From assembly GCA_947650365.1 (NCBI GenBank), contig OX393555.1, forward strand, positions 9,974,840 through 10,038,839: DNA of 64,000 bases, written 5' to 3'. The stretch is from Chamaelirium japonicum (Eukaryota; Streptophyta; Magnoliopsida; Liliales; Melanthiaceae). Positions 24,035 through 64,000 of this stretch are shown piece by piece (position 1 is the stretch's first letter; every line of letters begins with the position of its first letter). The position numbers and the translations under genes are program-made. Below the pieces are notes generated by a model. The model saw only the letters and a list, made by a program, of their open reading frames with translations, had not been told where the DNA came from and searched no databases.

Positions 24035-24144
24035 ATGGCGTCTCTGCTAATCGCAACTTCAATCTGCTGCGGTCCCCGGGAGACGTTCCCTCGGTCCAAA
24101 TCCTCACCGCGCTCCCCTCTGGTTAACTTCTTCTCGTCCTCCAA
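24035..24144 (+). CDS. AARE: AARE exon 1 (presumed), plastid-type leader
   Basis: The ATG lies in a strong context (GCCGCCATGG). The 36 full codons give [13 protein letters not shown]..., rich in Ser, Arg and Pro and poor in acidic residues, as in chloroplast transit peptides. GTAGGT follows as donor, leaving phase 2, which matches an acceptor at 36860-36861. Assignment to AARE rests on strand, phase, position and the known presence of leaders in some plant AAREs, not on direct similarity. It could instead be the first exon of another transcript. Confidence 0.6.
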
Positions 24145-27100
24145 GTAGGTCTCTCGGCCCCCTCTCTCTTCCATGCTCTGAGCCCCGAAGAGTTCTGCAA
24201 GTGCTAGAGGATGCCACCTTTTTAATGATTTTTTGGATTTTAATGTCTCTCCTTACTTGGTTCTTCATGGGTGACCTGCACAGTAGTTCTGGAACGAAAT
24301 TCATGTTGGATTTAGAGGACACCTTTTATGTACCTTCCTACAGTAGGAACCTTAACTCTGTTTCTAGGCTTGTAAAATTTGATTTTTCATTTTCTTTTCG
24401 AGACTCATCTGTATCTTTTTGTAAATATCTCTATGTGGTTGGTTCTGTTTCACTAGTAGATGGTTTGTATAAGCTTAAGCTTAAACTTATTTTATAATAA
24501 TCCTCATTAATCCAGTATGATAGTATGATTGACAATAAGCGTGGCATGTGCAACGAAAAATCATCCATCATTTGGCATCGGAGGTTGGGACACATTTTCC
24601 CAGAAAGAATCCAAAGATTGGTGAAAGAAGGGATTTTAGAACCTTTTGACTTCACTGATTTTGTGATATGTGTGGATTGTATAAAGGCAAAACAGACCAA
24701 TACCTCCAAGAAGGATGCGAAAAGAAGCAATGAGACACTAGAAATTGTGCACACGGATGTATGTTGACCATTATTTCCATGTTTAAGTGGAGAGAAATAT
24801 TTTGCCACTTTTATAGAAGACTACTCACGCTACATGTATTTTTACTTACTGAATGACAAGGCTGAGGTTGTTGGATATCCTCATGCCCTAAAACCCGGGT
24901 TATAAGGGGAGGTCTACAGAGGGTATATAAAGCGGGTGATGGGTGCCTCCCTCATCGATGTGGGACTATCTGTTAACACTTCCCCTTACGCGGAGCACGC
25001 GTGGTAAGGCACGATCGGGGGGAGCACCCGGAGTGGGAGTAGGAGCAGGAGACGGGCTAGCTCTGATACCATGTTAGATATCCTCACACCCCAAAACCCG
25101 AGTTATAAGGGGAGGTTCACAAAGGGTATATAAAGCGGGTGATGGGTGCCTCCCTCACCGATGTGGGACTATCCGTTAACAGAGGTATTCCAAGCCTTTA
25201 AAGATTACAAAATAGAAGTAGATAAACAATTTTTTTTTAAGAAATAAGTAGATAAACAATTAGGTATAGTGATAAGGTAGTCAGATCTGATAGGGGTGGT
25301 GAATATATGGACAGCTCACAGAAATAGGACAAAGAGAAGGGTCATTAGCGAGGTTTTTTAAAGATGAATGCATAGTACCTCAGTACATAATGCCAGGCAC
25401 ACCAAGTCAAAATGGTGTTGCTGAAAGAAGAAACTGGACGTTTAAGAAAATGGATTGGGCAATGCTTAATCACTCAACCCTTCCTTTACATTTGTGGGGA
25501 GAAGCTTTAAGGACAACGGTGCATGTACATAACAGAGTTCCTACTAAGGCTGTCACGCCCCAGAAATCTGAAGACCGATTCTTGGGGTGTGAGGTGAGAA
25601 AAGGAAAAGGGTTATGGGTTTGGTCACTTAACTATGCCAATCTAGGGTTCTCACAGGGCTTCTTCTACGCTCTCTAATACGAAAAACAAGGAGGAGGGAG
25701 AAACAAGAGGGGAATCTTTTAAATTTAATTTTTCGAAAAAAAACATTTTTATTAAAAAAGAAAGAAGAGAAATTATCAACAAGGAGAAGATATTATCTAG
25801 TCAAGCTCAACCTTCAAAAGTCATATCCTCTCAGTATGAGTGACCTGTCGGTGCTACTACATACTGACAGGAGTCTATCTGAGGGAGCACGAGGCTCAAG
25901 CCTCCTACGGCTAGCCAAGTGGTTTCACCTACTACCTAACACTCAGGTGCAACAGTCTAGGGTTCCTATCTACAAGGTTAATCAATTTAGTCAGTTATAT
26001 ATACTTATATTTTCATCATGATCTATCCTAGGCTTGGGGCCTTAAGGAGAGGCCTACCCAAAAGAATTCAGCTGGAACCATTGCAACTACAACCATAGAA
26101 CACTAACAACTAATGAAAACTCTTATTCCAATACAATTACCATGTCTGAAGAGAAAAGACTACAAGACGGACATACTAAACAGAAAGGTAAAGCTGCAAC
26201 TCCAACTCCGCCTCTGGACTCCTACTGCTACTCCTGAGCCTCCGAACCTGCAACTGAGCCTACTCGTGGGAAAGAGTAGCCCCCAATAGGAAATTGGGAG
26301 ATTAGCCAAATTAATGGCTAGTGACATCCTAATAGTCTTTAATAATATGAGACAACTAATCTTAATAAATTAAGATAAGATCTATCAGTTCTAGTAAAAT
26401 CCAAGTTTGCAGAATGATACCTAAACCTATCAGTAATCTATATTCGCATGCAATTCCTACTGTCACTAGGTTATCTAACATAAAGTCCATTCAATGTTCT
26501 ACAGCATTAAAGAACAAATTAAATAAGACGTTCAGATAAAGTCACGAAGTCATCATGTAAACAGTCACTCAATTCTAATTTCATATACAGATAAAACACA
26601 CACTATCAAAATGTGAACCCCGGATATTTTGTTCATCCTGCCCCCGGTCGGGCATTACTATAGGGCCTTTTATTTCGATGTAGAGGGCCAACTCTCTCGC
26701 CGTGCATCCACCAACACCATGCACTAGTCACCCAGATGATCATAAGGGGTTTCCCGTCTTTCACGGTGGAGCTCTACCGCCCAACTTGCTTTACTATGGG
26801 GACTTCAACTCCCCGGGATAGGGTTGCTAGGCCAATCCCTACTCGAGGGCACCTCCTATTGGCTTTACCACAACCCTTGCCCGTGACCCCTAACCTACTT
26901 AACTTCGGCTGTACGCGCAGGGTGGTTCACGACCCTTACGCGCACGGGGTCCCTACCCTCTAACCAGGTAGATTCACACATAACATCTTTCAACATATAC
27001 AATGAAGCTACAAAAAGTCTATTTAATGCTTATCAATTTCCAACAATTTACCCCTGGTCTCGTACTGCTCTCGCAACCGATGCAACATAATAAATCAATA

Positions 27101-30100
27101 AAGTAAAACACTCATCCCAGTGACCCGTGTGCTAGGGTTGCCATACTCCTCTCAGGAGGGTGGGTCCCGATAATTATTAGTTATTCAATTTAATGATTAA
27201 TTTAAGGGAATCCTAATTACGGTGTCCATACAATCAAAAGCAATCATTATCATTATTATTAATATTTTAAGCATGCGTCGCCGGACTCGCGACTCCGCAT
27301 ACAAGGCGGGGTCCACTTGACCACATGCGACGATGCCCGGCGGGGCCCGCATGCAGTGTCATGGACACCTACCCTTAGTCATTCTCATTTCCCACTATTA
27401 AAGACCACGCAAGGGTAGTAGATGTCACCTGGCTGTCGATTACACATGACTCCTGCTAGCTAGTTGCCTCTGATCCGCCTCCGCTGGATCACCACGATCA
27501 AGGTCTGATAATAAACACAGCTCCGCATCACACTCTATCGATTAAAACAAAAGAATCTACGATAAGGGTTCTATGCCAAGGATAGTCGGGCACCCTCGAT
27601 AGGGGACCAATTTTGAGTCGACAGTACGCAAATCTGTGCGACTGAAGAACTCAAACCTAAACAATACTAGGTCAAACAAGTAATTAGAAGCTAAACCTAC
27701 TCATTGAATCGGGCTCGAAGAACCCTGCTCGATGGTTTTGGTTTCGCTGGAATCCGACTTCGGTCGGACGGTTTCGGGTCAAACCACGTAGAACCGGTGA
27801 AACCGATCGCATGGTTGGTTCACTAGGGTAGAAGGGGTTCTAGGGTTATCTTCTAGGTTTAATAGGTGGGACTCAAAGTTCTGAGCACAATGCCGCTGGT
27901 TTCGTCCGAATCCGAGTTCGGACGATGAAACGGCGGTCAAACCACGGTACCGCGATAATATCGGGTCCAAGAATAAAACAGGGTATTAAACAATATAATT
28001 ACTATTCTAGACTATGACCAACAGGTAGTATTTCCCGAGCCGGTCGAAATGGCGCTGGTTTCGTCCAATTCCGAGTTCGGACGGAGAAATGGCAGTCGAA
28101 CCAAAATCGTCTGGTTCACGGGTCTCACCTGAACCAGACCGGTTCACTGTTTGGCTCGGGTCAAGTCTGCTGGTCGGGTCGGGTCTGCAGTGGTTAGGTC
28201 GGGTCGGGTTCAGGGCTAAACGGATCGGGTCTGGGGTTAATTAATAACCTGCGAAATTACTGAACTACCCCCCCCCCCCCCATCTCTTCTTCTCCACGAG
28301 ACCGAAACCAGCACGGCTGGTTCCTGCGCGTCGGCGGCCGGCGGGAGGGGCGGCCTGGAGCGCCGGCGAGCGCTCGGCCGGCCTCTCCCGCACCACCCCC
28401 ACGGAGGAGGTGCGGCGGGAGGCGGCCGGAGCGGCCGTCGGTGCCCGAAGCTCGGCCGGAGGGGGGCTCGCGCGGGGTCGATCTACGGCCGGTGGTGGTG
28501 CGCCGGGTCGCCGGGGAGGGGCTCGGTTGCGGCGGCAAGCACTGCCCGTGCGGGCCGCGGCATGGGAGGAGGAAGGGGTCGCGGAGGAGATGGGAGGAGG
28601 AGGGGCTGACCTGGGGGGTGTAGGTGCGCTCGCCGGTGCTCCGGCGAGGGGCGGTTCGGGGTGTTCCGATCCTCTCCCTCCATCTCTTCTTCGGCTCTCG
28701 CTCTCTCTCTCTGCATCCCGTTCTCTCTCTCTCTCTTTCTCTCTAACACGTTCTCTCTCTAGGTCGGTTAAAAAGGAGGGGTGGGGTGCGGTTTTGATGA
28801 TAAGGGCTGGAGGGATAGGGTCGGTTAAGGCTTGGGGGAGGGGATAAGGAACGAAAGGTATGTGTTTATCTGTCCAAATCTTACCCGATCCTTCTAATCC
28901 GAATTTCGGATTGTAAATCCCGGGGAGGCCAGTCGAGAGGGTCTAAACCCAGCTAAAGTTTTGGGAGAAAGGTCTTAGGCCTGATCGGGCTCGGTCCCGA
29001 GCCCTGAACCGGGCTCGGTTGGAATCCGGGTGCGATTCGTCCATCAACCGGGCTGAAAAGAATAATCACCCGTAACTATCAAACCGGAAGTCGGAATAGG
29101 GCCCGAGAGGATTCGTTGGAAAGGTCTCGTCAACGCGAACGCGTTAGAGCTTGGTACATAATTTTCTGACTTCTGGATCTCCCGAAAAGAAGGAAAGATT
29201 CCAAAACTCAAAATAGCAATAACTATTTACCCGGGTGTCGGATCGACCCAAACTCAAGCTCATTGGAAGGCTCTCTCAGAGCCTCATCTAACGTATCTTG
29301 TTTCGTTACGATCCGATCACCCGATCTCTTGTAAGAAACAAAACAGCTACAACTATCGAGCAATTATCGTTTTTCTAGGGTTTACCTGCCGGGCTGCCGA
29401 AACTGGCTGCGCATACACATGATCGTTGCACGGAACGCACCATCGTGACACGCTCGAAGTTACGGAAAATGTGAACGTAAAACATCTCATAGGTTTACGT
29501 TCTATTTATTGGGAAAAAGCCCAAAGAAAAAGTCTGGCTGCAAAAAGACGAAACTAGCCATGGAGGATTTCTATTATTCTCAAATCTAACACCACAGGTG
29601 TTACAAAGGCTGTGCAAAAAATTCCATATGAGTTATGGTCAAGTAGGAAACCATTATTGAATTATATGCACATCTGGGATTGTTCTATCGAAGCTAAGCT
29701 ATATGACCCGCATATAAAGGCTTTTGACCCTAAGACAACCAGTGGATATTTTATTGGTTACCCTGAGTGGTCGCAGGGTTATAAATTTTACTGCCCATCC
29801 CATTCACCAAAGATTGTGGAAACAGAAAAAGCTAGATATCTGGAAGATGACAATATCAGTGGGAGTGCATTACCTCAAGAAATTTATTTTGAGGAATTAC
29901 AGGATACAGACCCAAGACCTGTGATTGATTGCAGTATGGTTAATCCTATGTTCATCTTAGATGAAACCATTCAAAAGGAAGAACCACTTACTAATGAGCA
30001 ACCCTACGAGGAGCCACCACTTGTTGCCCAAATACCACGAAATTTGGATCAAGGGACAACTGTGTGGAGATCTACAAGAGTAATAAGATCGACTATTCCT

Positions 30101-33100
30101 CCAGATTACTTGGTGTATCTTCAAGAACCCGATGATGTCATTGAAGATTTAAATGATCTCATATCCTTTTCACAAGCCATGAAGAGTGAAAATGCTTCAC
30201 ATTGGTTTGATGCCATAAAAGAAGAGATAAGCTCTATGGCTAAAAATCATGTTTGGGATCTTGTCCCTTTACCGGAAAGAGTCAAACCAGTCAGATGCAA
30301 ATGGATATTTAAGGCTAAAAGAGACTCTAAAGATAAAGTGGAAAGATATAAGGCCAGATTAGTTGCAAAAGGTTTCACTCAAAGGGAGGGGAGGGTGTTG
30401 ACTATACGGATACCTTCTCTCCAGTTTCTTCGAAGGATTCTTTCAGGATAGTCATGGCCCTAATAGCTCATTATAACTTAGAGCTACACCAAATGGATGT
30501 GAAAAAGACTTTCTTGAATGGGAATCTTTAAGAAGAGGCGTACATGGTACAGTCTCAAGGGTTATCTACAGAGGACAAAAGCCATTTGGTATGCAAGCTA
30601 AGAAAATCCATTTATGGACTTAAACAGTCCTCCCACCAAAGGTACCTCAAATTTAATGAGGTAATTTTATCCTTTGGGTTTACAGAAAACATTGTTGATC
30701 AGTGCATATACCTAAAGGTGAGTGGGAATAAGTTCATAATTCTAGTTTTATATGTGGATGATATATTGCTTGCTAGTAATGACTTAGGTCTACTGCATGA
30801 GACAAAAAATTTCCTTTCCTCCCGCTTTGAGATGAAGGACACGGGTGAAGCCGCTTATGTTCTCGGTATAGAGATTCACCGAGACAAATCCAAGGGTACC
30901 CATGGTTTCTCTCAAAAGTCATATATCTTAAAGGTTCTTGAGAGATTTGGTATGCAAAATTGCTCTCCAGGAATAGCACCCATGGTTAAAGGGGATAAAC
31001 TTAATTCAGAGTAGTGTTCTAGGAATGAAATAGAGAGAAAGCAGATGATTAACATCCCATATGCTTCAGCTATTGGGAGCTTGCAGTATGCACAAATTTG
31101 AACTCGACCAGACATTGCTTATGTAGTTGGGGTGCTTGGTAGATACCAGAGTAACCCTGTCATTGAGCATTGGAAGGTTGCTAAGAAAGTCGTGTTATTT
31201 ATAAGGAACTGAAAACTACATGCTCACATATCGTACTTCTGACTACCTAGACGTGATTGACTACTCAGATGTAGACTTTGCTGGGTGCCCTGATAATAGG
31301 AAGTTCACTATAGGATTCATCTTCCTACTTGCTGGCGGGGCAATATCGTGGATAAGCATTAAGCAAAAGACAACTGCTTCCTCCACAATGGAAGCTGAGT
31401 TCATAGCCGTTCATGAAGCCTCCTCACAGGGTATTTGGATTAAGAACTTCATCACAGGTCTCAAGGTAGTGGACTCTATTGAGAGGCCACTAAGAATCTA
31501 TTGTGATAATGAAGTGCCATTTCCTTCTCCAACAACAACAAGAGCTCCATTTGATGCAGACATATGGATATCAAGCTCTATATTGTTAAGGAAAGGATGG
31601 AGAGACATCTAGTGTCTATAGATCACATTGGCACACATCAGATGTTAGCAGACCCCTTACTAAAGGGCTAGCACCAGGATTGTATTTTGTACATGTAAGG
31701 GGTATGGGTCTATCCAGTTCTTTTGTTGAGTAATACCTAAGAAGCACTGACACTGGTACGGGGACACGGGTACGACACGACATGGGTTCGCCGACACGGC
31801 AAATCCTAAAAAAGGAGGACACGGGTACGGCGGGGACACGGCAAAATAAATTTATATTTTATGTGTGTTTGCAATTCATATATATTTCAATAACCGAAAA
31901 AACCTCATAGAAAACAACTAAAATGAAAATTTAATGCATACTGAATCGCTATCGTTAGTTATATCCAGTCCGATCGGTGAATCACAGACAGCTCTAAATG
32001 GTATGGAAAATAATGGTTGTGCTTCAATTTTGACTTCAACCTATCTAAAACCTCAGAGGATAAGATAAGTTAAAGCCAAACCTGAATCGTAACCGTCCAT
32101 CATAACCATCCTGACAAGTGAATCACACTCGGGCCCAAATAGCATGCAAAAGAACGGCTGCGATTCAGTTTCTCTGAGGTTATAATCTCAAAGGATCAGA
32201 TAGGTTGAAGCCAAAACTGAATCACCATAGCTTATAACCCGACCCTATATCAAACAGTCCGTCAACCCGCAGTGTCCCAAGTGTCCGAGGAGTGTCCGAC
32301 CGTGTCCGGCTCCCGGAAGCACGTAGGACACGGCACATGCGTGTCCGGTGCGTGTCCGGCGAGTGTCTGACGAGTGTCGGTGTCCGACACGTGTCCGACA
32401 CGGGTACGGGAGGCCTGGAGAAGTGTCCATGCTTCCTAGAGTAATATGTATTTTGACCCTTTCAGTTATGCGATTACATTCAGTATGCATATATATGTAT
32501 GATGATGATTCTTTCTATTATGTTTTCCATATAATGTTTCATGGATAAAGTTTGAGTATAATGTCTATATTGACATAAAATTTGGACCAAGGAATAGGTA
32601 TGAGGTCAACCTATTCATAAAGAACAAAAGGCCACATAAAGTATCAATTATGAGTGTTCAATGATATTGTGGTACATAGAAGGTCGTACTAGATTATGAG
32701 GTATTTGCCGCCATGACTCATATCGTTGTTATCTCATAATGAGGCATAAAATTAACCTTTTGGTTAGAATAATTTTAAGTGGTAATGATTCTTCCTTCTT
32801 CATCAATCCAAAAAGTTTTGTTAAAACCTATTTTCATATATATATATATATATATTTACATGTATACAATTTTCTTTTTAAACTGTTATGGGTTGATGTG
32901 CAAGTTAGGTCAAGTGGGAGAAATATTGGGCTTTTGGCCCAACCTATTAATGTGACCCAACTAAGTCCCATTAGTGGGAACGGTTACTAGCAGTTAATCT
33001 AATTGACGGATGAAGGGGTGGCCATATCCCTAAAAAGGTGGGTTTCTCATCAATAAACCCACATCACTATTCTGATGGGAAGTACGTGCAATAGAAAATC

Positions 33101-36100
33101 GTTAGAGCTCTTGGTCCCTTCTCTCTGAGTGTTTTTCCTGTGAGATCCCATCCATCTCAAACACTAGAAGGAATAGAGGAAATCTAGTGGCCTTTTTCCC
33201 CGGGAAGATGACTACATCTCGGTCGGGTATCGCTATCGGCGTCGAGCAATCTCGGTCGGACATTGTCATCGTCGTCAATCAAAGGAGGAGTCTCCACTGC
33301 AAGTTTGCCATTTGATTCCCATGGCCTCTGGTATAAATTTCTTTTGAAATTCTAACATATCTTACATGTGTTTGTAGTAATGCCAAAGAGTTTTACTCCA
33401 AAAGGTAGTGATGAGTTAAGGTAATGACGAGACTGCTCAATGCTTGGACCACTTCAGATCATGTGGTTTCTCAATCTCATAGTGCTTTTGGCATTTCTTG
33501 TTTCTCACCATCTTGCGAGCTGCGACTGATAAATCAAAAGATCTGTTCAAAATAACATATTTATAGCTTGGAATTCCTCGGAAATTGGCATAACTTGACT
33601 TGATGACTCGTGTAATAAATTGATATACATAATGAATCAAACATTTAAGTCAATATACTTGCCGTTTGATTTGGTTGAGTGGACTTGACTTCGCCGAGTT
33701 TCGAATTGGCTAGACCAAACATTTAAACTACAGTCTTGGCTTGCATTAGGGTTTCCGGTGATAAAATTGATATGCATGTTACGGGAAAGAGGGAGGGTAT
33801 TCTCTTGTATTGATTATCTTTACACTAGCACTACCTCTCTTTACATAGGGAGAGAACACACACTATTACAATACCATTGCCCATATGGAACTAATAATAA
33901 GACTACATCTTATACCCCACTCAAACTGATATAGGGTATAAACTAACATCAGTTTACCTAACATGAAAAAAAAAAAACAAAAGAAAGAAAAATATATCCA
34001 ACATCCTACACCCCCCCTCAAACTCAAAGTAGGGATGAAAGCAAAAGTGCCAGACAAACCTGCAAGCTGTAAAAGGGTTTTCTCGACGCGCCAACCAGAT
34101 GGCAACACGTGTACAACGGGGCCACTAGGCTTGGCCTGACTTGAAGAGTCGAAGAACCGGACCGATCGGACCCGGTCCAACTCGGTCCAATCCGATCCAC
34201 GGGCTGTACCCCCACGCAGGTACATGCCCTGGAGAGAGATCGAGCTAGCCCTAGCCTCAGGGCGAGAACTAGGTTGGGGAAAGGGTCGAGCAGGTCGTGG
34301 ACCTAGCCCGACAGCCCGAACCCTCAAGAGACCCGACCTGGTCGGCAGCGGTGCGTCGCCCTCGAACGAGGAAAGATCAAGAGGTGCCTGAAACGGTCGG
34401 AAAGTTTATATAGCTGCCAGAAGATTCACCAGGCTAGAGGGCCTTGGCAGTATCTCACCTGTTATGATCGTGGGTCGCCCACGATCAGGGAAAGGACCAC
34501 GACTAACGGGATCATAGACAGAAAGAGGTGAAGGCGTCTGATCAGGAAAGATCCGCCTTAACCGCCCGAGATTCTCGGAGGATATTCCGCGAGCGTTTCA
34601 CATACATATGAGAAAACCTATGGAAGAACCTCGCCTCTTCATGGGAAGGTAAGCAATCTCTCGCTCCCGAACCCTAGACCACGCTTGCATTTGTTCCCTT
34701 CCCTGACTTGAGCATCTGAGGGGTCTTGGTTCGGAGGTGAGTCTTGGTCTTCTTGCAGGTACCACGAAAAGGAGGTGGAGGTGAGCCACTCCATCTAATG
34801 ATCGGGTGTGGCCAACAGGAAATCCCCCCCCCCCCCCCTCCACACACACACATACACAAGTTGTCCTGGAAGCCAATTGTCCTGCAAACAGGCCAACCAG
34901 GAAAAGACAAGGGTCGCTGAGGCCCGATGACAAACATGTGGAGCGATGTTGAAGGTAGTTGACAGTGGTAGAAGTCGAGCAGAGGAGACCGGGGTGAAGC
35001 CGAATGATGCAGTCGAAGGAGAAGCAGAGGAAAAACCGAAAAACGAAGCTGGAGGAGGATTAAGAAGAGAGCAAAGGGTACACACTCGTGCAAGGCAAGA
35101 GATTAAGAGCACAAAGAAGAGGCACACTGTGCAAAGCGCGAGAAAAGAGCGCATAGAAGAGGTACTATGCAAAGCGTGGGAACAGAGCGCAAAGAAGAGG
35201 TGCACACATGCAAAGCACGAGAAGGCACACTTGTGCTAGGTGCACACACTCGTGCAAGGCGCAAAAGGGAACACTAGTGCAAAGCGCGATAAAATAGTGC
35301 AATAAAGAAGCGACACACTCATGCAAGGCACCATACACTTGTGCAAGGGCAATAAGGCACAACGAGCCACGACAAAAGGTGGGTGTCAACACATTGTATC
35401 CAGAGTTGCAGAGAGGATCGCGACCAATCTCTTGATTGGGATCACAATCTCTCAAGGAAAAACAACATCGTACCTCTCACGGAAGGAGAACAAGCATCGC
35501 GATCGCGAATTAAATCGCGCATCAAAAGTCACGAACAAAAGATCACGGAGCAAAAGGGTACCACGCAGATCGCGATGTAGCGATCGTGATCGAGATTTCA
35601 TGAGCAATTGAAATCCTTGACTGAGAGGATCTCGAAGCCCAGGATCACATGGACTACAAGATCAGTTGATGGTGTTGGATTAATCTCCTAGTTGCGCACG
35701 ATCAATGAAGAAAAGAAATACCGAGATCACACAATTACACAATCCCGATAGTGCGGGGAGGAAGGGCCGTCGTGTCACCATATGAGAATGATCAAGATCG
35801 AGCGACACGTCTCTGGTTATCTGGTTCTCATATGGAGTCTCTGGAGTCGGCTAGAGCGAGCGGCACACATGAAGTCCTGCGTGAAACAGTCAAGTCAACA
35901 CACCTCTGCAAGAAGCAGTCTTACAAGACATGCGTCGCACACGGAGATTAGCTGATGCCGAGGGCGATCCCTGCCTCGATGTCGCCAGTGAACAAGGGAG
36001 GAGCCATTCGTGGCCCGCAAGTGGAAGCGTCGAATCACCCGCAAGAAAAGAGGAAGTTGAGGCCGATGCAACGTCACAGACGAACGGAAAAGGGAGACCA

Positions 36101-37120
36101 GAGAAGGAAAAAAGTTTTCTTTTATTATTCCCAGCCTCCTCGAGATCACCAGTGGCAACCAAGGAGCCAGAGATGAGAATTCCAAAACCCTAGGCAGAGC
36201 CCTACTAGGATACATGCCAAATTTGGTGCTGGGATTGTTGTGATACTTTATGCACTAGATTTAGTGCCGGGATACTTTCCTAGTTTTTATGAAGACCATC
36301 CCAGTAATTAAGGATTGGTTCTTACCTTTGCTGTATTAGATATACTGCACACAAACCTAAGAAAAAATAACACACAGAATTCTTCTCCATCATCTCTTCT
36401 CTATTAGAAAGAAATATAAAAAGCGTAGCAGAAAATATGTGAATGAAAGGGCAAGTTATTTTCGAGAGGCACTTGAAATCCTTCAATAAAAATGAAAGAC
36501 AACACTCAGCAGAAACCATCACCAAAGAAAAAAAAGAACCTTCCACATGCAGAAAGAGGCAAAATACTTAAATTCATTTCTAAAGCAAAACAATTCATGA
36601 ATTATCCAAAAAAATGGTAAAACCGTGTTTTCTTTGTTTTTAGAGTAAATCTGAACAAATAATCAAGTCATTTTATATCTAGGAGCAGTTTGTGGCTAGT
36701 TGGCCACCTTCCGACCCTTTAGTACAACAATCGAACTTGCGTGTAATTCTAATCTCTATTCTTTTACTTGTTGGTGCTTGTGAGTTGTGACATAATTTTG
36801 CAGTTCGAATGCAATTGATCTAGTTTCTCAGAGTGAGTATTTATTGATCTGTTATCCTTAGTGATTGTCAGAAGTTATCAACCTCGTCAGTTCTGCACGT
36901 GCCAAATGCTGTTTTCGCGAAGGAAATGCCATTATGCGTAGATGCAGTTACTGTCAACGAGTCTTCTTCTGAGGCTGACTTGCTTCAAGAATTCACTAAT
37001 ATCCCGAGCATTGATAAGGCATGGATTTTCAAGTCTGATAGTGGTATGGATATATGGGACTTCTAGCATCAACATTTTAAGAGATCTCAAATTCTCAATG
37101 CTCTTTCTTGCTCCATTAAT

Positions 37121-37202
<82 letters not shown>

Positions 37203-49640: not shown

Positions 49641-49860
49641 TATGGCTTCCTACAGCATCTCTCGGCTCTCATACTGCCTGCACACCGTCGCTGATCGTCG
49701 AGTCCCTCCGTCTCCTCGTTTTGATGGTATTCTCGGGCCATGTCCCTCCACCAGATCACTCGACTGTGGACGTCGTCAGGGTCTCCTCCGCCATGATGGC
49801 GAGACTGCTGCTGCTGCTGATCTCCCTACTCCAGCACCGCCTGCCCCCACTCCTGCTCCG

Positions 49861-53000: not shown

Positions 53001-53331
53001 GCTATGGCTTCCACCACCGCTGAGATTGTCTGGCTTCGCCGCCTTCTGCTCGACTTGGGAGTGGTGATATCCGGGCCCACCCCTCTCTTCTGTGACAACC
53101 GGAGTGCTATTCAGATTGCTAGCAACCCGGTCTTCCATGAGCGAACAAAACATATTGAAGTTGATTGTCATTATATTCGTCAGGCGTTTCTCGACCACAC
53201 CATCTCCCTGCCTTTCATTTCCTCATCGGAGCAGACTGCTGATTTTCTGACGAAGCCCCTGACGATTGCTCGCTTCCGGCATTTTCTAGGCAAACTCTCG
53301 GTTCATGATTCACCGTGAGTTTGAGGGGGAG

Positions 53332-53472
53332 TATTAATGTACATATAGATGGGTCGGGTTTACTGTACAATCGGGTCGGATCGTATAGTGATACATGTAC
53401 ATATATTGGGCTTGAGTCCCTCAATGGAATGCATTCTATTCCTCTCCAAACCCTAGCCGTCATCTCCTAACA
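53332..53472 (+). repeat. 3' LTR of the intron-7 copia
   Basis: 141 bp, nearly identical to 48669-48808, preceded by a polypurine tract and followed by TGGAG. Confidence 0.93.
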
Positions 53473-53519
53473 TGGAGCAACTTGTTCTAGACTCGGAGAC
53501 CCTTCAAGTGATAATTTAA

Positions 53520-56398
53520 TTGCAATCTTTATCTCCTAGAACTAGACCTCTTGAAGGTATTTTGAAAATAAATGCACGGATAGAGAAGATTCTTCTCTCT
53601 GCTATCGGCTCGTTGGAGGTTAAATCGGAGACCTCCATCCTCTCAGATGAGGAATCGACTACTTTGCACAAATCATGAGGGGACCTCCTTTCCATTCTGC
53701 AGAAGGAATAGATCCTGTGGAAACAACGCTCGAAGGACAAATGGGTCCAACTGGGGGACCGAAATACCTCCTACTTTCACAAGGTAGCCAACCAGAGGAA
53801 GAAACAAAGTTCTATAGGGAGCCTCGACGTAGGGGTTAGCGACTTGAAGGCACGGAGGCGATCATGCAAGGAGTCACAAACCATTTCAGAAGTTATTTTA
53901 GAGACCTACCGTCTTTCTCGTCGTCTCTGGACTGGGAGGATCTATCTCTTGGCAGATTACCATTAGATACGGGTCTAGACAGAGATTTCTCGGTAGAGGA
54001 GATCAAACGAGTTGTCTTCGATATGAAAGGTGATGGAGCTCCGGGACCTGATGGCTTTCCTATGGTTTTTTTCCAAGCCTTCTGGGACTGTCTATCCTTG
54101 GATGTTGTTAGATTTGTCAAGGATTTTTTTTTCCGGCGCTGCTTCTATTCAGAACCTGAACTATTCTATCTTGGTCCTCATCCCGATGCGTGCTGGTGCG
54201 GAAGATGTCACTGATTTCCGGCCTATCAGCCTCTCGAACTGTATCTACAAGATTATCACTAAGCTCCTTGCTAACAGACTATCCTCGCTCATGGATGAGA
54301 TCATTAGCAAATCCCAATCAGCCTTCATTAAAGGGCATCTAATCCTTGACAGTGTGGCTTCAGTTCAGGAGATCATCTTCCAGCTTAAAGAACAGAGAAC
54401 GGAAGGGCTGATTTTGAAGCTGGATTTCGAGAAGGCTTTTAATAGATTCCATTGGGATTTTATTCTCGCAACCCTTCAGGCTAAAGGCTTTCCCCCAAAG
54501 TGGCTACGTTGGGTCGTCAACTGCCTCTCTTCCTCCAAACTATCTTGCTTCATCAATGGAGAATTGGGTAGCCAATTCCTGGTGAAGAAAGGTTTAAAAC
54601 AGGGATGCCCTCTCTCTCCTTTCCTTTTTATTCTGGCAGTGGACGCTTTTGATGCAATCCTTAACCGAGCTAGCAATCGGAACCTTATTCTTGGTATCCG
54701 AGGTAACTCTTGGTGCATCTCGAATCTCCATTTTGCTGATGATATTTTTCTTTTCTGTGAAGCCAAGCTAGAACAGGTAACCGTGTTGAAGATAATATTA
54801 TATGCTCTGGAATTTTGCTCAGGCCTTCGAATTACCTTCAATAAGAGCTCTATCTTCTATGTGGGTTCTCAAGAGGACTTCGGCTCTAGGACTTCTTCAC
54901 TCCTGAATTACAAGTTGGACTCGCTTCCTATGCGGTACCTGGCCCTTCCCATCAGCAACAAGAACCTTTCTCGCACTGATTGGTCTAAAATGATTGAGAA
55001 AGTGGATCTTCGTCTCTCCAGCTGGAGGTGTAAGCATCTCTCTCTAGGAGGCCGCCTAACTCTAGTCAACTCGACCCTCTCGACTATTATGTCCTATTAT
55101 CTGGCTTTTTTCTTCATTCCTACTTGAGTGATTAAGAAGATTGATAGCATCCGCAACAATTTTCTTTGGAAAGGAGCAGATGGCTCTTTAGTATTATACC
55201 ATCTTGTTAAGTGGGGTGTGGCTTGTAAATCGAGAGAGCAAGGGAGCTTAGGAATTCTAAATCTGAAGGATTTTAATAAGGCGCTTTTAGGCAAATGGTG
55301 GTGGAGACTGCAGAATGATCAAGGAGACCGTTGGTCGAATATCATTAGAGATCGGTATTTTCGACGATTCTCCCCCCTACAAGCGAGGAGCCGCCGATTT
55401 GACAAGATCTCCATTTTGGAATGGTATTTGCAAAGTCGGGACTTCCTTCAGGTGTGGCACGAGGTTGACCCTAGGGGATGACTGACATATCAAGTTTTGG
55501 ACCGATCAATGGGTTGACGACATTAGTCTAGCAACTCTTTTCGCTGATCTTTATGACTTAGCTTGGGACCAGAATGCTTTGGTTCGGTCTCAGGTATCAG
55601 GGTCCCAAGGTAGCTTCTCTTGGGCTGTCAAATTCAGGAGGTCCATTACACCGGCATTGCAAGTTCAGCATAATGATCTTTACTAGATCTTATCTTCTTT
55701 CTCCCTTGGTCTTGGTAGAGATTCCTCTTCCTCTTCCTGGAAATGGGAAGCTTCCGGAGTCTTCTCGGTCAGATCGTTTTACCGCTTCTTCAATGCAGGA
55801 GGGATAATCTGCCTAATCGCTAAACATCTCTGGAATTCCCCATCCCCTCTCAAGACCAGAATCTTTATGTGGCTGGCGATTAGAGAGAAACTTCTCACCA
55901 GGGTCAATCTTCGGCAACATAATAATCCTAATATCCCGGACATCTCCTGTAGCTTGTGTCACTTGCATCGAGAAGATGTTGACCACTTATTCCTTTTTGC
56001 CCCTTCTCGAAGAAGCTGTGGCATATGTTGAAACACCGGTTCCAAGTTAACGGCCACCCGGGATCCATTCGCTCTCTGTGGACTCTGTGGAGATCGAAGC
56101 GCATCAAACGTATCTTGAAACCGGCGTGGGACCTGCTAGTTATTGGGCTTTGCTGTTGCATTTGGAGGGAGCGTAATTCTAGAGTTTTCTCTGGTAACGA
56201 ACTTCCTATAGAGGCTGTCTGGGCGAAATTTACGAGGATGATCCGTAGCTGGTCCACGGCTTTCTCTCTTAAGCATTCCAAGGAGCTTAACTCTTATTTG
56301 TAATATGTAACTTGCTCTTTCCTATTAATAATATAGCTTGGGGTATGGCTTAACCCCTTCCTCTCATTCTTGGAGAGGAATCCCTCAAAAAAAAAAAG
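53520..56398 (+). mobile_element. 5'-truncated L1-type LINE, about 2.9 kb
   Basis: ORF2 remains start with WKQRSKDKWVQLGDRNTSYF (~53720), then GDGAPGPDGFPMVFFQAFWD (~54030). The reverse transcriptase core follows: DFRPISLSNCIYKIITKLLA, SAFIKGHLILDS, LDFEKAFNRFHWDF, KKGLKQGCPLSPFLF and LHFADDIFLF (catalytic FADD near 54735). Then come the thumb and zinc-binding C-terminus with HREDVDHLF (~55970). The endonuclease is absent. The frame is broken: stops near 53670 and 53708, a shift at the T-run around 54120, a TGA at 55125 and further shifts after 55480. The A-tail is at 56387-56398. The left edge is uncertain because it abuts the copia's duplication. It is related to the LINE at 38970. Confidence 0.9.
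54180..55127 (+). pseudogene. LINE reverse transcriptase, longest open part
   Basis: The largest uninterrupted piece of the LINE ORF2, about 315 codons from MRAGAEDVTDFRPISLSNCI to FFFIPT. It covers the fingers and palm with the DFEKAF Asp motif and the FADD catalytic pair. The enzyme copies LINE RNA into nicked target DNA. Without the endonuclease and with the frame closed at 55125, it is not expected to function. Confidence 0.88.
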
Positions 56399-56755
56399 GT
56401 GAGTGATGAGAAGGAGAGGAATGACCACACCCATACGTTTGTTTCTTGATTCTTTTAAATATAGTAAAGCGATCACTATTAAGGAGGAAATGACATACCT
56501 GCATCCAATAGCGGCTAACCACCATTGCTAATACATATTGAGGTAAGTTCAAGTAAAGCTAATAAGCCAGACATGAGACCTGTACTAATATCAAATTTCT
56601 AACAAGCAAAAATATCAACATGAAATCGTCAACACTCACCCGCCATTATGGTGAATTAAATATATGACAATAACCACTTTCATTGACAATAACCACTTTC
56701 ATTCAACTATTTATCCCAATATCTTGTAAACATGTCCTCTTTGATCCTTCGACCT
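56399..56755 (+). other. Intron 7 or intergenic sequence, nothing recognised
   Basis: A short AT-rich stretch with a small direct repeat ACAATAACCACTTTCATT near 56667 and 56686. No gene signal. Confidence 0.45.
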
Positions 56756-56849
56756 TGTTAATGTATAGAGATGGGTTGGGTTATATGTACATGTATATAC
56801 ACACAACCCGACCCGACTGTACATATAACCCGACCCATCTCTATACATA
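56756..56849. repeat. Inverted repeat of LTR ends (hairpin)
   Basis: Two 30-base arms, 56761-56790 and about 56818-56847 (TGTATAGAGATGGGTTGGGT... and its complement), differ at one base and are separated by ~27 bases. Both arms are the outer end of the 140-bp copia LTR in opposite directions. Confidence 0.88.
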
Positions 56850-57004
56850 CCAATAGGATGGTGCTGGAGGGGCTGCCGGAGGGGGGAATCGGGTGTAGGA
56901 GGGGGCTGCCGGTGGGGGAGGAGCTGCCGGAAGGCCGAAGGAGGAGGAGGCAGGTGCCGAAGGAGTCGCCTTCACCGCGGAGAAACCCTAGAGCTCTGAT
57001 ACCA

Positions 57005-57114
57005 TGTTAGATACCCTCGCACCTCAAAACCCGGGTTGTAAAGGGAGGTCCACAACGGGTATATTAAGCGGGTAATGGGTGTCTCCCTTACCGATGTGAG
57101 ACTATCCGTTGACA
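57005..57114 (-). repeat. TRIM-type LTR inside the array
   Basis: 110 bp, TGTTAGATACCC...ATCCGTTGACA, the same length and family as the LTRs at 24869 and 25072. It is bordered on the left by a primer site that belongs to copia-type leader DNA. Confidence 0.88.
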
Positions 57115-57238
57115 CTCCCCCTCACGCGGAGCACGCGTGGCAAGGATCCTCCCACGCGGAGCATGCATGGCAAGGCACGATCGGCGGGGAGCACCCGGAG
57201 CGGGAGCAGGAGCAGGAGATGGGCTAGCTCTGATACCA

Positions 57239-57378
57239 TGTTAGGAGATGACGGCTAGGGTTTGGAGAGAATGGAATGCATCTCATTGAGGGACTGAAGC
57301 CCAATATATATGTACATGTATATACACACAACCCGACCCGACTGTACATATAACCCGACCCATCTTTATACATTAACA
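57239..57378 (-). repeat. Copia LTR, left member of the gag-bearing unit
   Basis: 140 bp, TGTTAGGAGATGACGGC...TACATTAACA on the plus strand, the inverse of the LTRs at 48669 and 53332. It is bordered by a TRIM-type primer region on its left. Confidence 0.9.
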
Positions 57379-57862
57379 GTCACAAAGTGAACTGATAGAA
57401 ATTAGATTAATGTTAAGAAGAGGAGCATGATGGACATGGGGTAGGGACAAGCAACCAATAGGTTTGGAAGTAGTAGAGATGGAGCCACACTACGGAATAG
57501 GTACGAGAGTCCCATCCACAGTGCAAACCTCCAGGTGGGGAAGACCAGGAGCACAATCTGTGAGCACAATGGAGTCACATGTGAGGTGACATGAATCGAA
57601 AATTCATGGGGCAGTAGTACCAGAGGTAGCAGACAAGCCGTGAGCAGTCGGGGAGCCGGCAGAGGCTAGGTGACAAAGAAGGAGCTCCTCAAGTTGCTGG
57701 AGACGGTCCGGCTTAATCTAATAAGGTGTAGTGGTAGCAGCGGAGGATGCCAATCTCTACAACATCAGCAGCAGTGCCACCAAAGTGGTGAAAGGAGGAC
57801 TGACCAAGTCCACTGCTCCGTCCACCTCGACCACCGCATCGATTATCACGAGAAGCAGAAGC

Positions 57863-58300
57863 TTAGCGTGATCCCCTCTCGTCCGGACCCCAACGGGGGT
57901 TGCGAGGAGGACGTGTGGGACATTTACGTTTCATGTGATCGGGCTCCTTGTAGTAATGACAGAATAAAGGCCCCTCGGAGAAGCTGGCTACCAGGGCGCT
58001 GTCAAGTCCAGAGGCAGGTAGAGAAGGATGAGTATCCTGAGTCTGAAGACGAGTCTCCTCATCGACCAAGGCTAGCAGAGCATCCTCTAGCCGAGGGAGA
58101 GGCTCACGGTGCAGGAACTGAGCAGCGATGAGAGCGAAGTCCGGTCGAAGCGCGGCCAGGAACTGATGGAGATGATCCTCCTCAAGGTAGTGCTGGAAAT
58201 TCCTGGAGCATGGGCAAGCACACCTCTCGGGGATCAGAGAATCCAGCTCATGCCAGTAAGCACTCATCAGACTGAAGAAGTCATGAATCGTACGCTCCCC
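57863..58300 (-). pseudogene. copia gag remnant (fossil)
   Basis: On the minus strand: a gag-like helical region (FLAALRPDFALIAAQFLHRE, LEDALLALVDEETR) followed by a zinc-knuckle-like CHYYKEPDHMKRKC. This is the capsid/RNA-binding part that is not recognised in the related element at 48669. Broken. Confidence 0.8.
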
Positions 58301-59338
58301 CTAACGAGCGGACTAAGAGTCACATATGAGTTGATGTCGGCGTGCACCGCCGCGCGGGAGAAACCGATCCCAGAGATACTCCCACATCACGCACGCTGTT
58401 GGAAGTCGGCCGATAGGTGTAAGGAGTGGGCGAGTAACGGAGTCAAGGAGATATGCCCGAATGACCTGGTCGTGTCGACGCCACGTAAGAGCGGCCTTGG
58501 CAGCAGCTGCAACAACAGACGACGCATTGCTAGCATCGGTGCCACTGGTGATCGAGGAGGATCCTGATGAGTCAGACGAAGGGGATCCTCACCAGTGATG
58601 TGATTCCAGAGAACGCGGCTAGAGAAGGCGGCCTCGACGGTGAGCGACTAGTCTGGCAGTCACTAGCCGAGGCCAACTGAAAGGTGACAGCTTTCAGCGG
58701 CGGAGAGATCGCAATGACGGAATGCACAAGAGAAGACGCCATGGAGGAGAGGAATCAACCGGATCAGGAAATTGGGGTCGAGGGCTTGTGTGGTGAGGGA
58801 GGACAGGTGGGGGGGATGGGTCGGGGTGAAGGAGAAGAGAGAGGTGTGGGACTGGATGAGGTCGGGGTGGGTCTTCGGGTGGTGGCTGATGGGGTCGGGG
58901 GGGAAGTAAAGAGATCGGGTGAAGGTGATCGAGTGAGAGGGGAGGCCGGGTGGAGTGGTGGTGGGATCGGGATGATGGAGGAGGCCAGGTTGGGTGACCG
59001 AGGTGATGGAGGAGGCTGGGTGGAGTGGGATCGGGGAGATATGGGAGGCCGAGTGGGGTGATAGTGGGATCAGGTGATGGAGGAGGAGCCGAGTGGAGTG
59101 GCAGGTGGAATCGGGTGATGGATGAGGTGCCGGGTGTGGTCAGGGTGGAGGAGGAGAAGGAGAGAGGGGCCGGGTGGGGTGGTGCCGGGTGGGAGAGGGG
59201 GGAGTCGGTTGATGGGGATCGGCCGAGGAGAGGGGGGAGCTGGTTGATGAGGGCCGGTGGTGGTCGAAGGAGGTATCGGTGTTCGTGAGGCAGCCTTCGT
59301 CGTCGTCGCCGCGGAGGAATCCTAGGGCTCTGATACCA

Positions 59339-59476
59339 TGATAGGAGATAACGGATAGGGTTTGGAGAGAATAAGGATGATCTTCATTGAGGGACTCAAG
59401 CCCAATATATATGCACATCAATACACAAGTAACCTTACCCGACTGTACATAAACCCGACCCGATATATACATGTCA
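59339..59476 (-). repeat. Copia LTR, right member of the gag-bearing unit
   Basis: About 138 bp, TGATAGGAGATAACGG...TACATGTCA, more diverged than its partner at 57239. The primer site is at 59327-59338. Confidence 0.85.
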
Positions 59477-61050
59477 GTAACAAACACATAATGAACACGA
59501 CTGCCTGTGAAGCAGTGTTTGAAGTTTGCTTATCTATATTTGACAATGTGACAGTTTCTTCTATGAGTGAATGTTTTGGAGGATTTAATCAGTGCTCAAT
59601 GATGGCCTACGCTTGCCGTCAACTGCATAAGTCTGATTTGCCCTTGTCTATCATTAAAGTCTTAGAGACCCTTTTTTGAACACCAATTGCTCCTAATTTT
59701 AATGTTATTATGATGACTACCAACAGTGGATCATCTCTTATTGTTATTAAATGAAGTGATAACCATTCGTGAAACATGGAATTCCATTTTTTACAGGGAG
59801 TAGATCACTTATAGACATATTGGAGCATGAACTGCAAATTTTTATTAGAGGCTAGCAAGTAACTTAGTGTAGTACTATCTCAATTTCTTTTGAAGTTGCA
59901 GAAAACATGGTAATAATGCTTACACAAAACAAAGGTGCCTTTCTTGGTAAAAATACCCTCCAGAGTGAAGAATCTGCTAGACAACATAGTGTAGCGAAAT
60001 AGGAGGAGAGCGACAAAAGAAGGGTAAGTATTTATCAGGAGAAGAACTAGGTCGTGAGGTATCTTCATGGCTCCATTTTTCAAACTAGACTAATTGTTCA
60101 TCAGGGGAAGAACTACGATACAGTCCTGTTTCGACATCAAATACATGTCTGCACTTCCACTATTGCAAGTAATTAACACCATCAATATTTTACATTTGTA
60201 TTATGTACTTTATTGACTTACTGACTCGTAAATTAGCCGAGAATCTTCATGAAGGGAGATTTTAGATCATTAAGCAAAATGTAACTGTTTTGTGGACTTT
60301 AGAGATCACTATGTGCACAAAACACTCAACAACCATTCATCTCTTGGTTGGTTCAGGCTGTATTGAGTGAACGACATTGTTGAGGGTGAAAGGAACAGCT
60401 AGTAAAAAGTAAAAAATACTCACAAAGATCACGTGAACTTTTTTTTGTATCTACTCTTCATGGTAGTTTTTAGCTTCTAAAAGGAAGAGAAGGGCTTCAA
60501 TGATGCCCTAGATATCATGGGTCCCAATGTGAAGTCCATGCACATACTAAGGTAAACAGACCATGAGACTATCAATCAGATTTTGGATAAATCTACACGA
60601 CACAAGAGAACAAGTTGAGATTACATATAAAAAAAGGATAGAAAGAAATCACACTCAAAATTTTGTAGGAATACATGGTTTATGGTTATATATTATTATA
60701 TTGTATTGTGCTTGTCATGCTTTAATGTATTTAGAGCCATCTTAGATACTTTGAGAACCATGTATCCTCTTCTTTCCCTCCACACTTGTTTGTGTTGTAC
60801 ACTTATTTTCCCTTTTGTTCCTCCTTTCTTGTTTTCTTTCCATTTTCTATTTCTTTTTTTTGTCTTTAATGTTGGATCTATTGACGATGTTGTTAGGGAC
60901 CTTGAACCCCCCCCCCCCCTAACACACACAAACACAAACTACGGGGGGTTTAAGCGACAACATGGTATTAGAATAAAGTTGAGGTAGATTCGTCCCCTCA
61001 CCTTGCTGCTCATTCTATTCCTCATCATTCATTTCCGCTTCTTTTGTTTT
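59477..61050 (+). other. About 1.6 kb with no recognised gene or element
   Basis: AT-rich sequence, possibly AARE intron 7. The frame ending near 59679 (CEAVFEVCLSIFDNVTVSSM...) is not a family I recognise and has no supporting context. A C-run lies at 60909-60920. Confidence 0.45.
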
Positions 61051-61205
61051 TGTCAAGAGATATTGTATTTAGTGTGTATGCTTTCATATCGCCCTTAGAG
61101 GCTCCTTTGTATTATCTACATATACCTGGCCTATTGGCCCAATGGAGATGCATTCTTTCTGCTCAACCCTTAGCCGTCTCTCTCTTTCCTCTAGGGTTCG
61201 TCGCA
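61051..61205 (+). repeat. 5' LTR of the right-edge copia
   Basis: 155 bp ending CGTCGCA directly before the primer site. The start TGTCAAGAG is placed by comparison with the 153-bp LTR at 47898-48050. The partner would lie beyond the window. Confidence 0.7.
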
Positions 61206-61217
61206 TGGTATCAGAGC
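61206..61217 (+). promoter_or_regulatory. Met-tRNA primer binding site, right-edge copia
   Basis: TGGTATCAGAGC immediately after the LTR, in plus orientation. Confidence 0.9.
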
Positions 61218-61286
61218 TAGACCCGCTTCAGGAGCTCCTCCCGATTATGCCCTTGCCATGCGTGTCCCGCATGAGGGGGGGGGGGG

Positions 61287-61400
61287 TGTTGAGATGGTCA
61301 TGCTTCACACGGGTTAGTCCCACATCGGTAATGGGAGCATGTGATGAGCAGCATATATAGCCGCCTTGGACCTCCCCTTACAAATCGGTTTTGTACGACA
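61287..61400 (+). repeat. TRIM-like LTR joined to a polypurine-like G-run
   Basis: 114 bp, TGTTGAGATGG...TGTACGACA, preceded by ATGAGGGGGGGGGGGG. The core AGTCCCACATCGGT and GACCTCCCCTTA matches the TRIM LTRs at 24869 and 57005 in reverse orientation. No target duplication was seen. Confidence 0.6.
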
Positions 61401-62158
61401 TTGACTATGAGTACGGCAGTACGTAGAGCCCTTTTGGCGTGTTTTGAGGAGACTTTTGCTCCGGTCGCTCAGATGACCACTGTTAGAGCTCTTTTTGTCT
61501 TTGCAGTAGTTCGTCGTTGGCCCCTTCTTCAGATGGATGTGAAGAATGCCTTTTTTTACTGTGACCTTGTAGACACACAAATTAGATCGCACCCGAGCCC
61601 GGCCCGTATGCGCAGGCCCGTTGAGCCCAACCCGACACAATGGGACCCACACCATATAATCGGGGCCCACCGGATTCGACCCGAGCCAAACAAGAGACCG
61701 GATGGGCCCATCCTCAAGTGGGGCCCACCCGGCCGGCCCCCCTTTATTTTAGAAAACCGTGCCCCCTACCCGCGGGTAGGGGGTGGCCGGCCAAGCAAGA
61801 AAGAAAAGAAAGAAAGAAAAGGAGGAAGAAAAGAAAGAAAGAAAAGGAAATAAAAGAAGAAGAAAAAGGAAAGAAAACCGCCATGTGCGGGGGGAGGTTG
61901 CGTAGACGTCTACACAAGCGTGGATCTACGTCGATCCCTCGATCCGACGAACATGAAACGAAACCGAGTCGCTATCGATTTAATGTGCAAGATTCAAATA
62001 AAAATTCAAAATGATTGGGTCATAACTACTCCGCCAGAAAAGGAAAATAAATGAAGGTTTATTTTCCCATAAATGAGGGAATAAATCTTGGGTAGTTATG
62101 GGAGAGATAATCAAGGGATTTAAATGAACCTTCCCATATCTCTCCCACTCCCTTCACC

Positions 62159-62166
62159 TATAAATA
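62159..62166 (+). promoter_or_regulatory. TATA box of the solo LTR
   Basis: TATAAATA in CACCTATAAATAGAGG, 1.26 kb upstream of the AATAAA signal. Confidence 0.6.
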
Positions 62167-62384
62167 GAGGGGGAGGGGGAAGGCTCAAAGGATTCGAAGT
62201 CAAAGACAGAAGCAAGGAAGCTCTGCAAAGGAGGAGACACGCCTTCAACGACCCAAGGCTTCACGAGGCTCGGGAAAGCCTATCCCTCTGGGACCAGCTT
62301 AGTCCATTGAAAGTCCTTATCAACGTAAAGACCCTTGCACAAGAAGATCAACCCTTTGACTCCGTGCACGAAGGAGAAAGCTCG

Positions 62385-62640
62385 GAGAAGAAGATCGAAG
62401 CGGCACCACCCCGTCGTCTTCATCAAGCCTTCGACTCCGATCAAGCCCAAAAGCCCGGATAAGAAGATCGAAGCGGCACCACCCCGTCGTCTTCATCAAG
62501 CTTTTGACTCCAATCAAGCCCAAAAGCTCGGAGAAGAAGATCGAAGCGGCACCACCCTGTCCCAACTCCGATCGAGCCCAAAAGCCCGGAGAAGAAGATC
62601 AAAGCAGCATCACCCCGTCGTCTTCAACATCATCCGCTCC
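62385..62640 (+). repeat. ~73-bp tandem repeat, four copies
   Basis: Units begin GAAGAAGATCGAAGCGGCAC near 62388, 62461 and 62534, and a shorter fourth near 62590. Each carries CACCCCGTCGTCTTCA or a variant. It lies within the transcribed part of the solo LTR. Confidence 0.9.
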
Positions 62641-63668
62641 ATTCACAAAGTAGAAAGCTTGGAGAAGGACACCCGAAGCGGCCGCTACATCCGTCGTCTT
62701 CCAAACAAAGTCTTCAACTTCGATCACGCCAAAGAAGCCCGGAGAAAAGGAAAAATCAAGCCGACGCTACAATCGTTGAGGAAGCCGGAAGAATAAAGAA
62801 GAAGGGAAGGCGCAACCATCACCGTTCGTGAAGAAGATCAAGCCAACGCCAAAGCAAAAGCCAACACAAGAAGCCGAAGCAAAAGCACCGGTAAAGCCTG
62901 CACCAAAGCAACGCAAGTGCCAAAGCCAAGCAACTACAACGGTCACGAGTAAAGTACCGCATGTTCTAACCGATACGACGCAAAGTCCGAAAGAACTAAA
63001 GCATCACAAGCCTCTACCCGTCTACGTCCAAAGCAAAGCAAAGCAAAAGCCAGAGCCGACGCCACAAGCACGATCAATGACGCGAAATGACGATCAAGGA
63101 CGCCGAGATCTAGCCAGAGCCGAGGGAGACGCGAAGACCGAGGAGCAAAGCCAAAAACTCTCTAGCTGAGAAAGCGCGAAGCACGGAAGGGACAAAAGCA
63201 ACGGCGACAAATCCTTAGCCTCTCAAGAAACCCTCACCCTATAAAGATCTCTGCCCTGGGAAACCCCTTCAGAGCTCTCGCACAAAGCAACGTGGAGACG
63301 CGGATCAAAGGAACCCTCCAGAGGATCTCTCCCACAATCTCCTGATCAAATATTCACCGCACCCGGCTCACCACCCTTGAGTTCCAGGGTTCCGGCTTCT
63401 GTAATCTTCGTGTGTTTGCAATAAAGACGACCCAAATCTTTTTCTGCGCATATAGACCTATCTGAGACTGTTTACATGGATCCTCCACCTGGTCTTCAGG
63501 TTCATCAACACGTGTGTCGTTTTTGTCAGGCAATTTACGGGCTCAAGTAGGCTCTTCGTGCCTGGTTTGAGTGTTTCCGTCGTGCTGTCCGAGAGCTTAA
63601 TTACTCAAAGTGCAGTCATGACCACTCTCACGGTCGTCCCCGCAGGGCGGGGCAATCCTATTATTATA

Positions 63669-63841
63669 AGAAATGCTACTCAGCCCGAAGGTTTTCCCGA
63701 TTTCGACAGCCCGATTGACATGGTAACATGCAACTGGTGGCTGAAACGAAATCGCTAGTGGGTTTCAGCCACCAGTTGCACGCTGCCACATTAATCGGGC
63801 TGAGCGAAATCGGGAAAACCTTCAAGCTGAATAGCATTGCT
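63669..63841. mobile_element. Foldback MITE, 173 bp
   Basis: Nearly the whole element is one inverted repeat: the left arm 63669-~63745 and right arm ~63765-63841 share AAGGTTTTCCCGATTTCG, CAGCCCGATT and GCAACTGGTGGCTGAAAC in opposite directions. The flanks CTATTATTATA and CTACTATTATA (63658-63668, 63842-63852) are a probable 9-11 bp duplication with one difference, suggesting a Mutator-like origin. It sits just before the catalytic YMDD codons of the copia reverse transcriptase. Confidence 0.87.
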
Positions 63842-64000
63842 CTACTATTATACATGGATGACATGATCATCACCGGGGATGACGCAACTGTGATTGCTTG
63901 TCTTCATCAGCACCTAAGGAGCCAGTTTCAGATGAAGGACCTGGGTATTCTTCGCTACTTTCTCGGACTTGAGGTAACATATAGTACAGATGGCATTCTT

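Follow-up and report, generated by a model that had tools for sequence, protein, structure and literature searches.

Organellar and cytosolic forms of the acylamino-acid-releasing enzyme (AARE) are documented for Arabidopsis and Physcomitrella (PMC9845386). In rice, 4,227 gene models with heterochromatic introns have been described, with a 5'-end bias and with many of them transcribed (PMC7145194), while 876 of 2184 Chloranthus orthologs exceed 20 kb, LTR elements having lengthened the introns (PMC8626473). The extremely large introns of Arabidopsis consist mainly of transposable elements (TEs), and some were confirmed as spliced by RT-PCR (PMC5575664); the expanded introns of grapevine are likewise mainly TEs (PMC3058033). 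A literature search on AARE combined with intron and retrotransposon returned nothing apparently relevant.

The window (the whole 64,000-bp stretch of DNA analysed here) was located by genome search at G000:C7:9974840-10038839 in the 1.52 Gb assembly. Judged from its sequence, it carries the 5' part of a complete plant AARE/APEH gene, encoding a serine peptidase of family S9 with predicted acylpeptide hydrolase activity. Exon junctions in the window were set by reading around each claimed exon, using phase and the GT-AG rule. All exons lie on the forward strand, with exon 1 predicted at 24035..24144. Splice borders and phase define exon 2 (36862..37043, in which 36926 is a candidate downstream start codon), exon 6 (38426..38503) and exon 7 (48243..48381), and are joined by APEH_N matches for exon 3 (37279..37588, 310 nt), exon 4 (37728..37949) and exon 5 (38049..38288). 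The original prediction of seven exons that stay open and in phase was borne out, as the joined exons (1281 nt) read through 427 codons and meet no stop, with GT-AG borders and compatible phases. The encoded protein matches Pfam APEH_N (PF19283) with E=3.7e-138 (residues 69-346, profile positions 3-273 of 274), in agreement with the AARE identity first proposed. A search of solved structures with this half of the protein returned one distinct PDB sequence at E<=0.001, chain 7px8_A, an acylamino-acid-releasing enzyme; no solved structure was matched by exon 2 alone using phmmer. Introns 1, 6 and 7, predicted at 12.7, 9.7 and at least 15.6 kb, measure 12,717, 9,739 and 16,937 bp. Introns 2-5 are short, as expected from the earlier range of 99-229 bp, but intron 2 is 235 bp rather than 229 bp, the latter value corresponding to an in-frame acceptor that lies 6 bp upstream. 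The 235-bp form is preferred because exon 3 is then 310 nt, as in the paralog on C3. One third of intron 2 is a perfect (AT)n microsatellite of 79 bp (37123-37201).

Exons 8-18 were found downstream on the same strand, the rest of the gene lying in C7:10038840-10078839. Exon 8 had no significant match when sought within the window, and begins 1319 bp beyond the last window base, at 65319 in window numbering. The full model has 18 exons and 838 codons over 75,474 bp (C7:9998874 to 10074347), of which approximately 73 kb is intron. All 17 introns are GT-AG, and there are no stops, frameshifts or splice-site losses. The joined protein matches both APEH_N (1.7e-137) and Peptidase_S9 (8.3e-38), the latter encoded outside the window by the same gene model, and residues 153-833 of the joined protein align to 7px8_A with a whole-protein E of 8.1e-93. 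The Ser (GSSHGG), Asp (GAKDRRVP) and His (FPDDGH) of the C7 protein lie opposite the Ser, Asp and His of 7px8_A, which we take to be the catalytic triad of AARE. The same three residues are aligned in an Arabidopsis AARE sequence.

A genome search with 317 residues from exons 2-5 gave 8 matches, 4 at the C7 locus and 4 on C3. The corresponding search with PF00326 gave 11, including one exon each at the C7 and C3 AARE genes; eight of the other nine were compared with AARE, 4 of them matching weakly and 4 not at all. The C3 gene lies on the minus strand within C3:85960000-86099999, with exons 2-18 intact (794 codons) and GT-AG borders at 16 of 16 introns. Exons 2-11 and 13-18 are equal in length between the copies, and exon 12 is 187 nt in C3 and 208 nt in C7. 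Of 794 aligned residues, the two proteins share 575. Nei-Gojobori estimates over the 794 codons were dS 0.635, dN 0.174 and omega 0.274 (0.302 for window exons 2-7 alone), bearing in mind that a pairwise omega averages both copies and is blind to the period since the youngest insertions. At the sequence level, exons 2-18 are thus under protein-level constraint, on average, since the C7/C3 split. With the Arabidopsis sequence as outgroup, C7 carries 65 unique changes and C3 47, a difference that is not significant (chi-square 2.89). The original prediction had envisaged that a second complete AARE might exist with the window copy silent. A second gene does exist, intact over exons 2-18, but the window copy gives no sign of silence, since its exons carry no lesions, the pairwise omega is 0.27 and it has not changed significantly faster than C3.

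The paralog allows intron lengths to be compared between copies. Introns 2-9 measure (C7/C3, in bp) 235/139, 139/209, 99/97, 137/147, 9739/4163, 16937/7401, 81/87 and 73/78, and introns 10-17 measure 108/125, 21446/4776, 482/11729, 101/113, 1356/754, 7989/2187, 1228/294 and 90/87. Among these 16 introns, seven exceed 250 bp in both copies and nine in neither (Fisher P=8.7e-5, using a cut-off picked after the lengths were known), and the lengths are correlated (Spearman 0.926, P=2.8e-7). The pattern is explained most simply if introns that were already the longer ones when the gene duplicated presented larger insertion targets. The matching lengths may also simply be inherited, and it is possible that selection holds nine of the introns short. 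A copia element near exon 8 in intron 7 may or may not be one insertion common to both copies; its flanks fail to align. Copia similarity within the same intron (55-75% between C7 and C3) is on par with that between different introns, and shared insertions are therefore not supported by it. The ends of the long introns are mostly no more alike than non-matching pairs, with the clearest exceptions in intron 12, at its start and its end, and in introns 1 and 14, at their ends.

Intron 1 (24145..36861, forward strand, 12717 bp) is mostly retroelement. Coding relics of a 5'-truncated copia element in sense orientation extend over 24312..31510, with stops, frame changes and nested insertions. A 4055-bp insertion lies inside this copia (25551..29605, ends TGTCACGCC/GGTGTTACA, AAGGC on both sides). 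Its first 600 bp gave 3151 first-look candidates in the genome; the 40 that were scored all match at 92% or more and include same-strand pairs, five of them spaced by 6.7-6.8 kb and one by 7.5 kb. Because pairs of its kin lie kilobases apart on the same strand, the insertion reads as the solo LTR of an abundant family. A presumably TRIM-like element at 24869..25181, likewise inserted into the sense copia, has two 110-bp terminal repeats (91%) and GAGGT on both sides, found by eye. Past the coding relics, an insertion at 31738..32443 (ends approximate) carries an 8-bp flanking repeat, GAGTAATA, also found by eye; we take it to be a non-autonomous member of a hAT-like family. The intron 1 copia matches contain 6 stops in approximately 2.5 kb, plus frame changes. 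At that rate about 3 stops would be expected in the 1281 nt of window exons, where 0 were found, although this clock is rough because copies may be broken prior to insertion. Upstream of the gene, a fold-back (MITE-like) element at 23076-23550 has arms that are 86% complementary and ends about 485 bp before the exon 1 start codon, and the region 3126-20395 contains repeated partial copies of one copia family, including tandemly duplicated stretches of 1.27 kb, 688 bp and 478 bp that share 94-95% identity.

Exon 7 is flanked by two copia elements, each retaining both LTRs. Copia A (42142..48050) lies in intron 6 (38504..48242, forward strand, 9739 bp), antisense to AARE on the minus strand, with LTRs identical at 149 of 153 positions and a target duplication of AGGCA. 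Copia B (48669..53472, forward strand, sense to AARE) starts 287 bp past exon 7, with LTRs identical at 137 of 140 aligned positions and a TGGAG duplication. Both encode integrase, reverse transcriptase and RNase H in copia order, and both 5-bp target duplications are perfect. Their coding frames are nevertheless broken by stops and frame changes, and no gag match was seen for either, the family searches on B covering frames other than its first long one. Exon 7 does sit between two copia insertions, as proposed, both elements having their paired LTRs. As LTR divergence is 2-3% and the dS between the paralogs is 0.64, copia A and B inserted well after the AARE duplication. On sequence comparison, both are young, post-duplication insertions, dated without a clock. 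Nested in copia A is a TRIM (45736..46459, minus strand) with 5S-rRNA-like sequence in each long terminal repeat, one scoring 41.8 bits against RF00001 and the other 36.6 bits, slightly short of the gathering threshold (38). A nested TRIM with 5S-like repeats fits Cassandra (PMC10853983). Intron 6 further contains a 5'-truncated LINE (38970..39592, forward strand) with zf-RVT, a poly-A tail and a flanking CAGTCT repeat seen by eye, and a degenerate antisense copia relic (39783..41194, minus strand) that is more decayed than copia A. Near the start of the intron, before the first recognised element, an approximately 82-bp stretch is duplicated at 84% (38616-38697 and 38814-38892). Intron 7, with a total length of 16937 bp, occupies 48382..64000 of the window (forward strand) and continues beyond it as far as 65318 (window numbering). 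Beyond copia B, it contains a LINE relic with RVT_1 and zf-RVT (54027..56019, forward strand), an older element with LTR-like ends (57227..59496, minus strand, 142 of 163 aligned positions identical) that is related to the copia B LTR, and further copia relics recognised by copia matches (61443..64000, forward strand). Summed from a hand annotation of the elements that could be named, coverage is at least approximately 62% in intron 1, 82% in intron 6 and, as far as the window reaches, 61% in intron 7. The three introns are thus retroelement-rich as predicted, but the stronger claim that they are almost wholly retroelements stands only in part.

The best overall explanation, which we regard as very probable, is a complete 18-exon AARE gene with constrained exons, whose retroelement-filled introns would be transcribed and spliced and whose exon 1 probably serves in targeting. 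RNA polymerase II would transcribe the whole 75.5-kb locus, and the spliceosome would take out the long introns as ordinary GT-AG introns, perhaps assisted by an intronic-heterochromatin pathway (OsIBM2 in rice). Exon 1 would most likely supply an organellar targeting peptide, and the exon 2 start codon could yield a cytosolic form. That exon 1 directs the protein to an organelle is a plausible prediction: its ATG lies in the context GCCGCCATGGCG, and its 36 codons are transit-peptide-like and end in a phase-2 donor that joins exon 2 in phase. The exon 1 DNA has one match in the genome, itself. Filters for start context, composition and a phase-2 donor pass only this start in 20000-36861 (16.9 kb). 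Identical filters pass 3 sites in a 41.4 kb C3 control (about 1 per 14 kb), none resembling exon 1, and the uniqueness of exon 1 is therefore approximately at chance level; its donor scores best of the four passing sites. Upstream of C3, tblastn gave no convincing exon 1 homolog (best E 0.12 over 81.4 kb, and 0.041 over a further 20 kb at 35% identity with a gap), nor did blastn over the 81.4 kb (best E 1.1). Start/donor candidates at 56253 and 78170 (first scan, 81.4 kb) and at 44026, 69193 and 49974 (second scan, 41.4 kb) were rejected as unlike exon 1. The C3 exon 1 may be further off, too diverged, or lost. In 36800-36861, exon 2 has two candidate acceptors 58 bp apart, and splicing to the upstream one would break the frame from exon 1; a similar pair occurs in C3. 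It is conceivable, if on balance unlikely, that exon 1 is not joined in frame, and that transcripts either splice to the TTTTGCAG site upstream, so that the exon begins at 36804, or start within intron 1, leaving only a cytosolic protein from the ATG at 36926. The upstream acceptor looks the stronger when judged by eye (C3 has a similar TTTGCAG site), the exon 1 frame runs into a stop when the letters are read from it, and both the failure of tblastn over 101 kb upstream of C3 and the pass rate of the filters on the two copies fit this alternative. Against it, the TTAG/ATAG acceptors give equal exon 2 length and phase 2 in both paralogs. Furthermore, the 21 exon 2 codons that precede the first Met of C7 show 22 differences from C3, 11 of them at third positions, which suggests that this stretch is translated; its translation in C7 would in turn require an upstream start. 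The two forms of AARE known from Arabidopsis and Physcomitrella (PMC9845386) also argue for a joined exon 1.

Silencing of the C7 copy is an improbable alternative to a working, spliced gene, and would mean that young copia A and B recently broke its expression and that the C3 copy does the work. The C3 gene, intact over exons 2-18, could carry the function alone, the LTR of the sense-oriented copia B could terminate transcripts early, and C7 has more unique changes than C3 (65 v 47), though not significantly so. With LTR differences of only 4/153 (A) and 3/140 (B), the insertions are perhaps too recent for the exons to have decayed. However, the 18-exon model has lost no frame or splice site, and its exons are intact although introns 1 and 6 hold other elements that are far more decayed. 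The retroelement surroundings would suggest that transposons captured these exons as gene fragments and moved them here, but this is extremely improbable: the reading is contradicted because the gene is complete, with 18 exons and its introns, exons 2-11 and 13-18 have the same lengths as in the paralog, and the search with exons 2-5 gave only two loci where dispersed copies would be expected. Repeat-rich regions are prone to misassembly, and the long introns could in part be an artefact of this kind. We consider this very unlikely, as 5-bp duplications flank copia A, copia B, the TRIM and the 4-kb insertion, no N occurs in the window or in the fetched stretches L009-L015 (L009-L012 being C7:10038840-10078839), and the C3 copy is long-introned at the same places. 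Beyond the complete, spliced gene that we prefer, a broader joint reading is improbable as a whole. It holds that C7 kept an organellar exon 1 and C3 lost it to become cytosolic, that intron 1 retroelements set the choice of start, and that introns grew in parallel. The intron 1 block, with its sense copia, would insulate or drive the organellar versus cytosolic start choice, and the same seven introns would have grown in both copies, with selection holding the other nine below 250 bp.

The locus presents a conserved gene with approximately 73 kb of introns that, in the part examined, are mostly insertions, some datable against a paralog. The presence of that paralog, with the same exon plan in the same genome, makes the gene its own control for which introns grow. 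If exon 1 is truly organellar, the gene would offer a natural test of a very long first intron against isoform choice, and a further testable possibility is that the copies divide the work, with C7 making an organelle-targeted protein and C3 a cytosolic one. Transposon-swollen plant introns are already well documented, and the AARE locus is a good example of this known pattern. AtAARE and Physcomitrella AARE (PMC9845386) resemble the C7 protein in combining APEH_N and Peptidase_S9 with an N-terminal extension, organelle-targeting in those plants and putatively so in C7, and share a many-exon frame (17 exons in PpAARE2 and similar in AtAARE, against 18 over 75.5 kb in C7). Unlike in AtAARE and PpAARE, the putative C7 targeting exon is set off by a 12.7-kb, mostly retroelement intron. 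Long TE-bearing introns are common to C7 AARE and the rice intronic-heterochromatin genes (PMC7145194). LTR-lengthened introns likewise link the C7 locus to the long genes of Chloranthus and magnoliids (PMC8626473), here at a single locus. Compared with the large introns of Arabidopsis and grapevine (PMC5575664, PMC3058033), C7 AARE has five introns of at least 7,989 bp in one gene.
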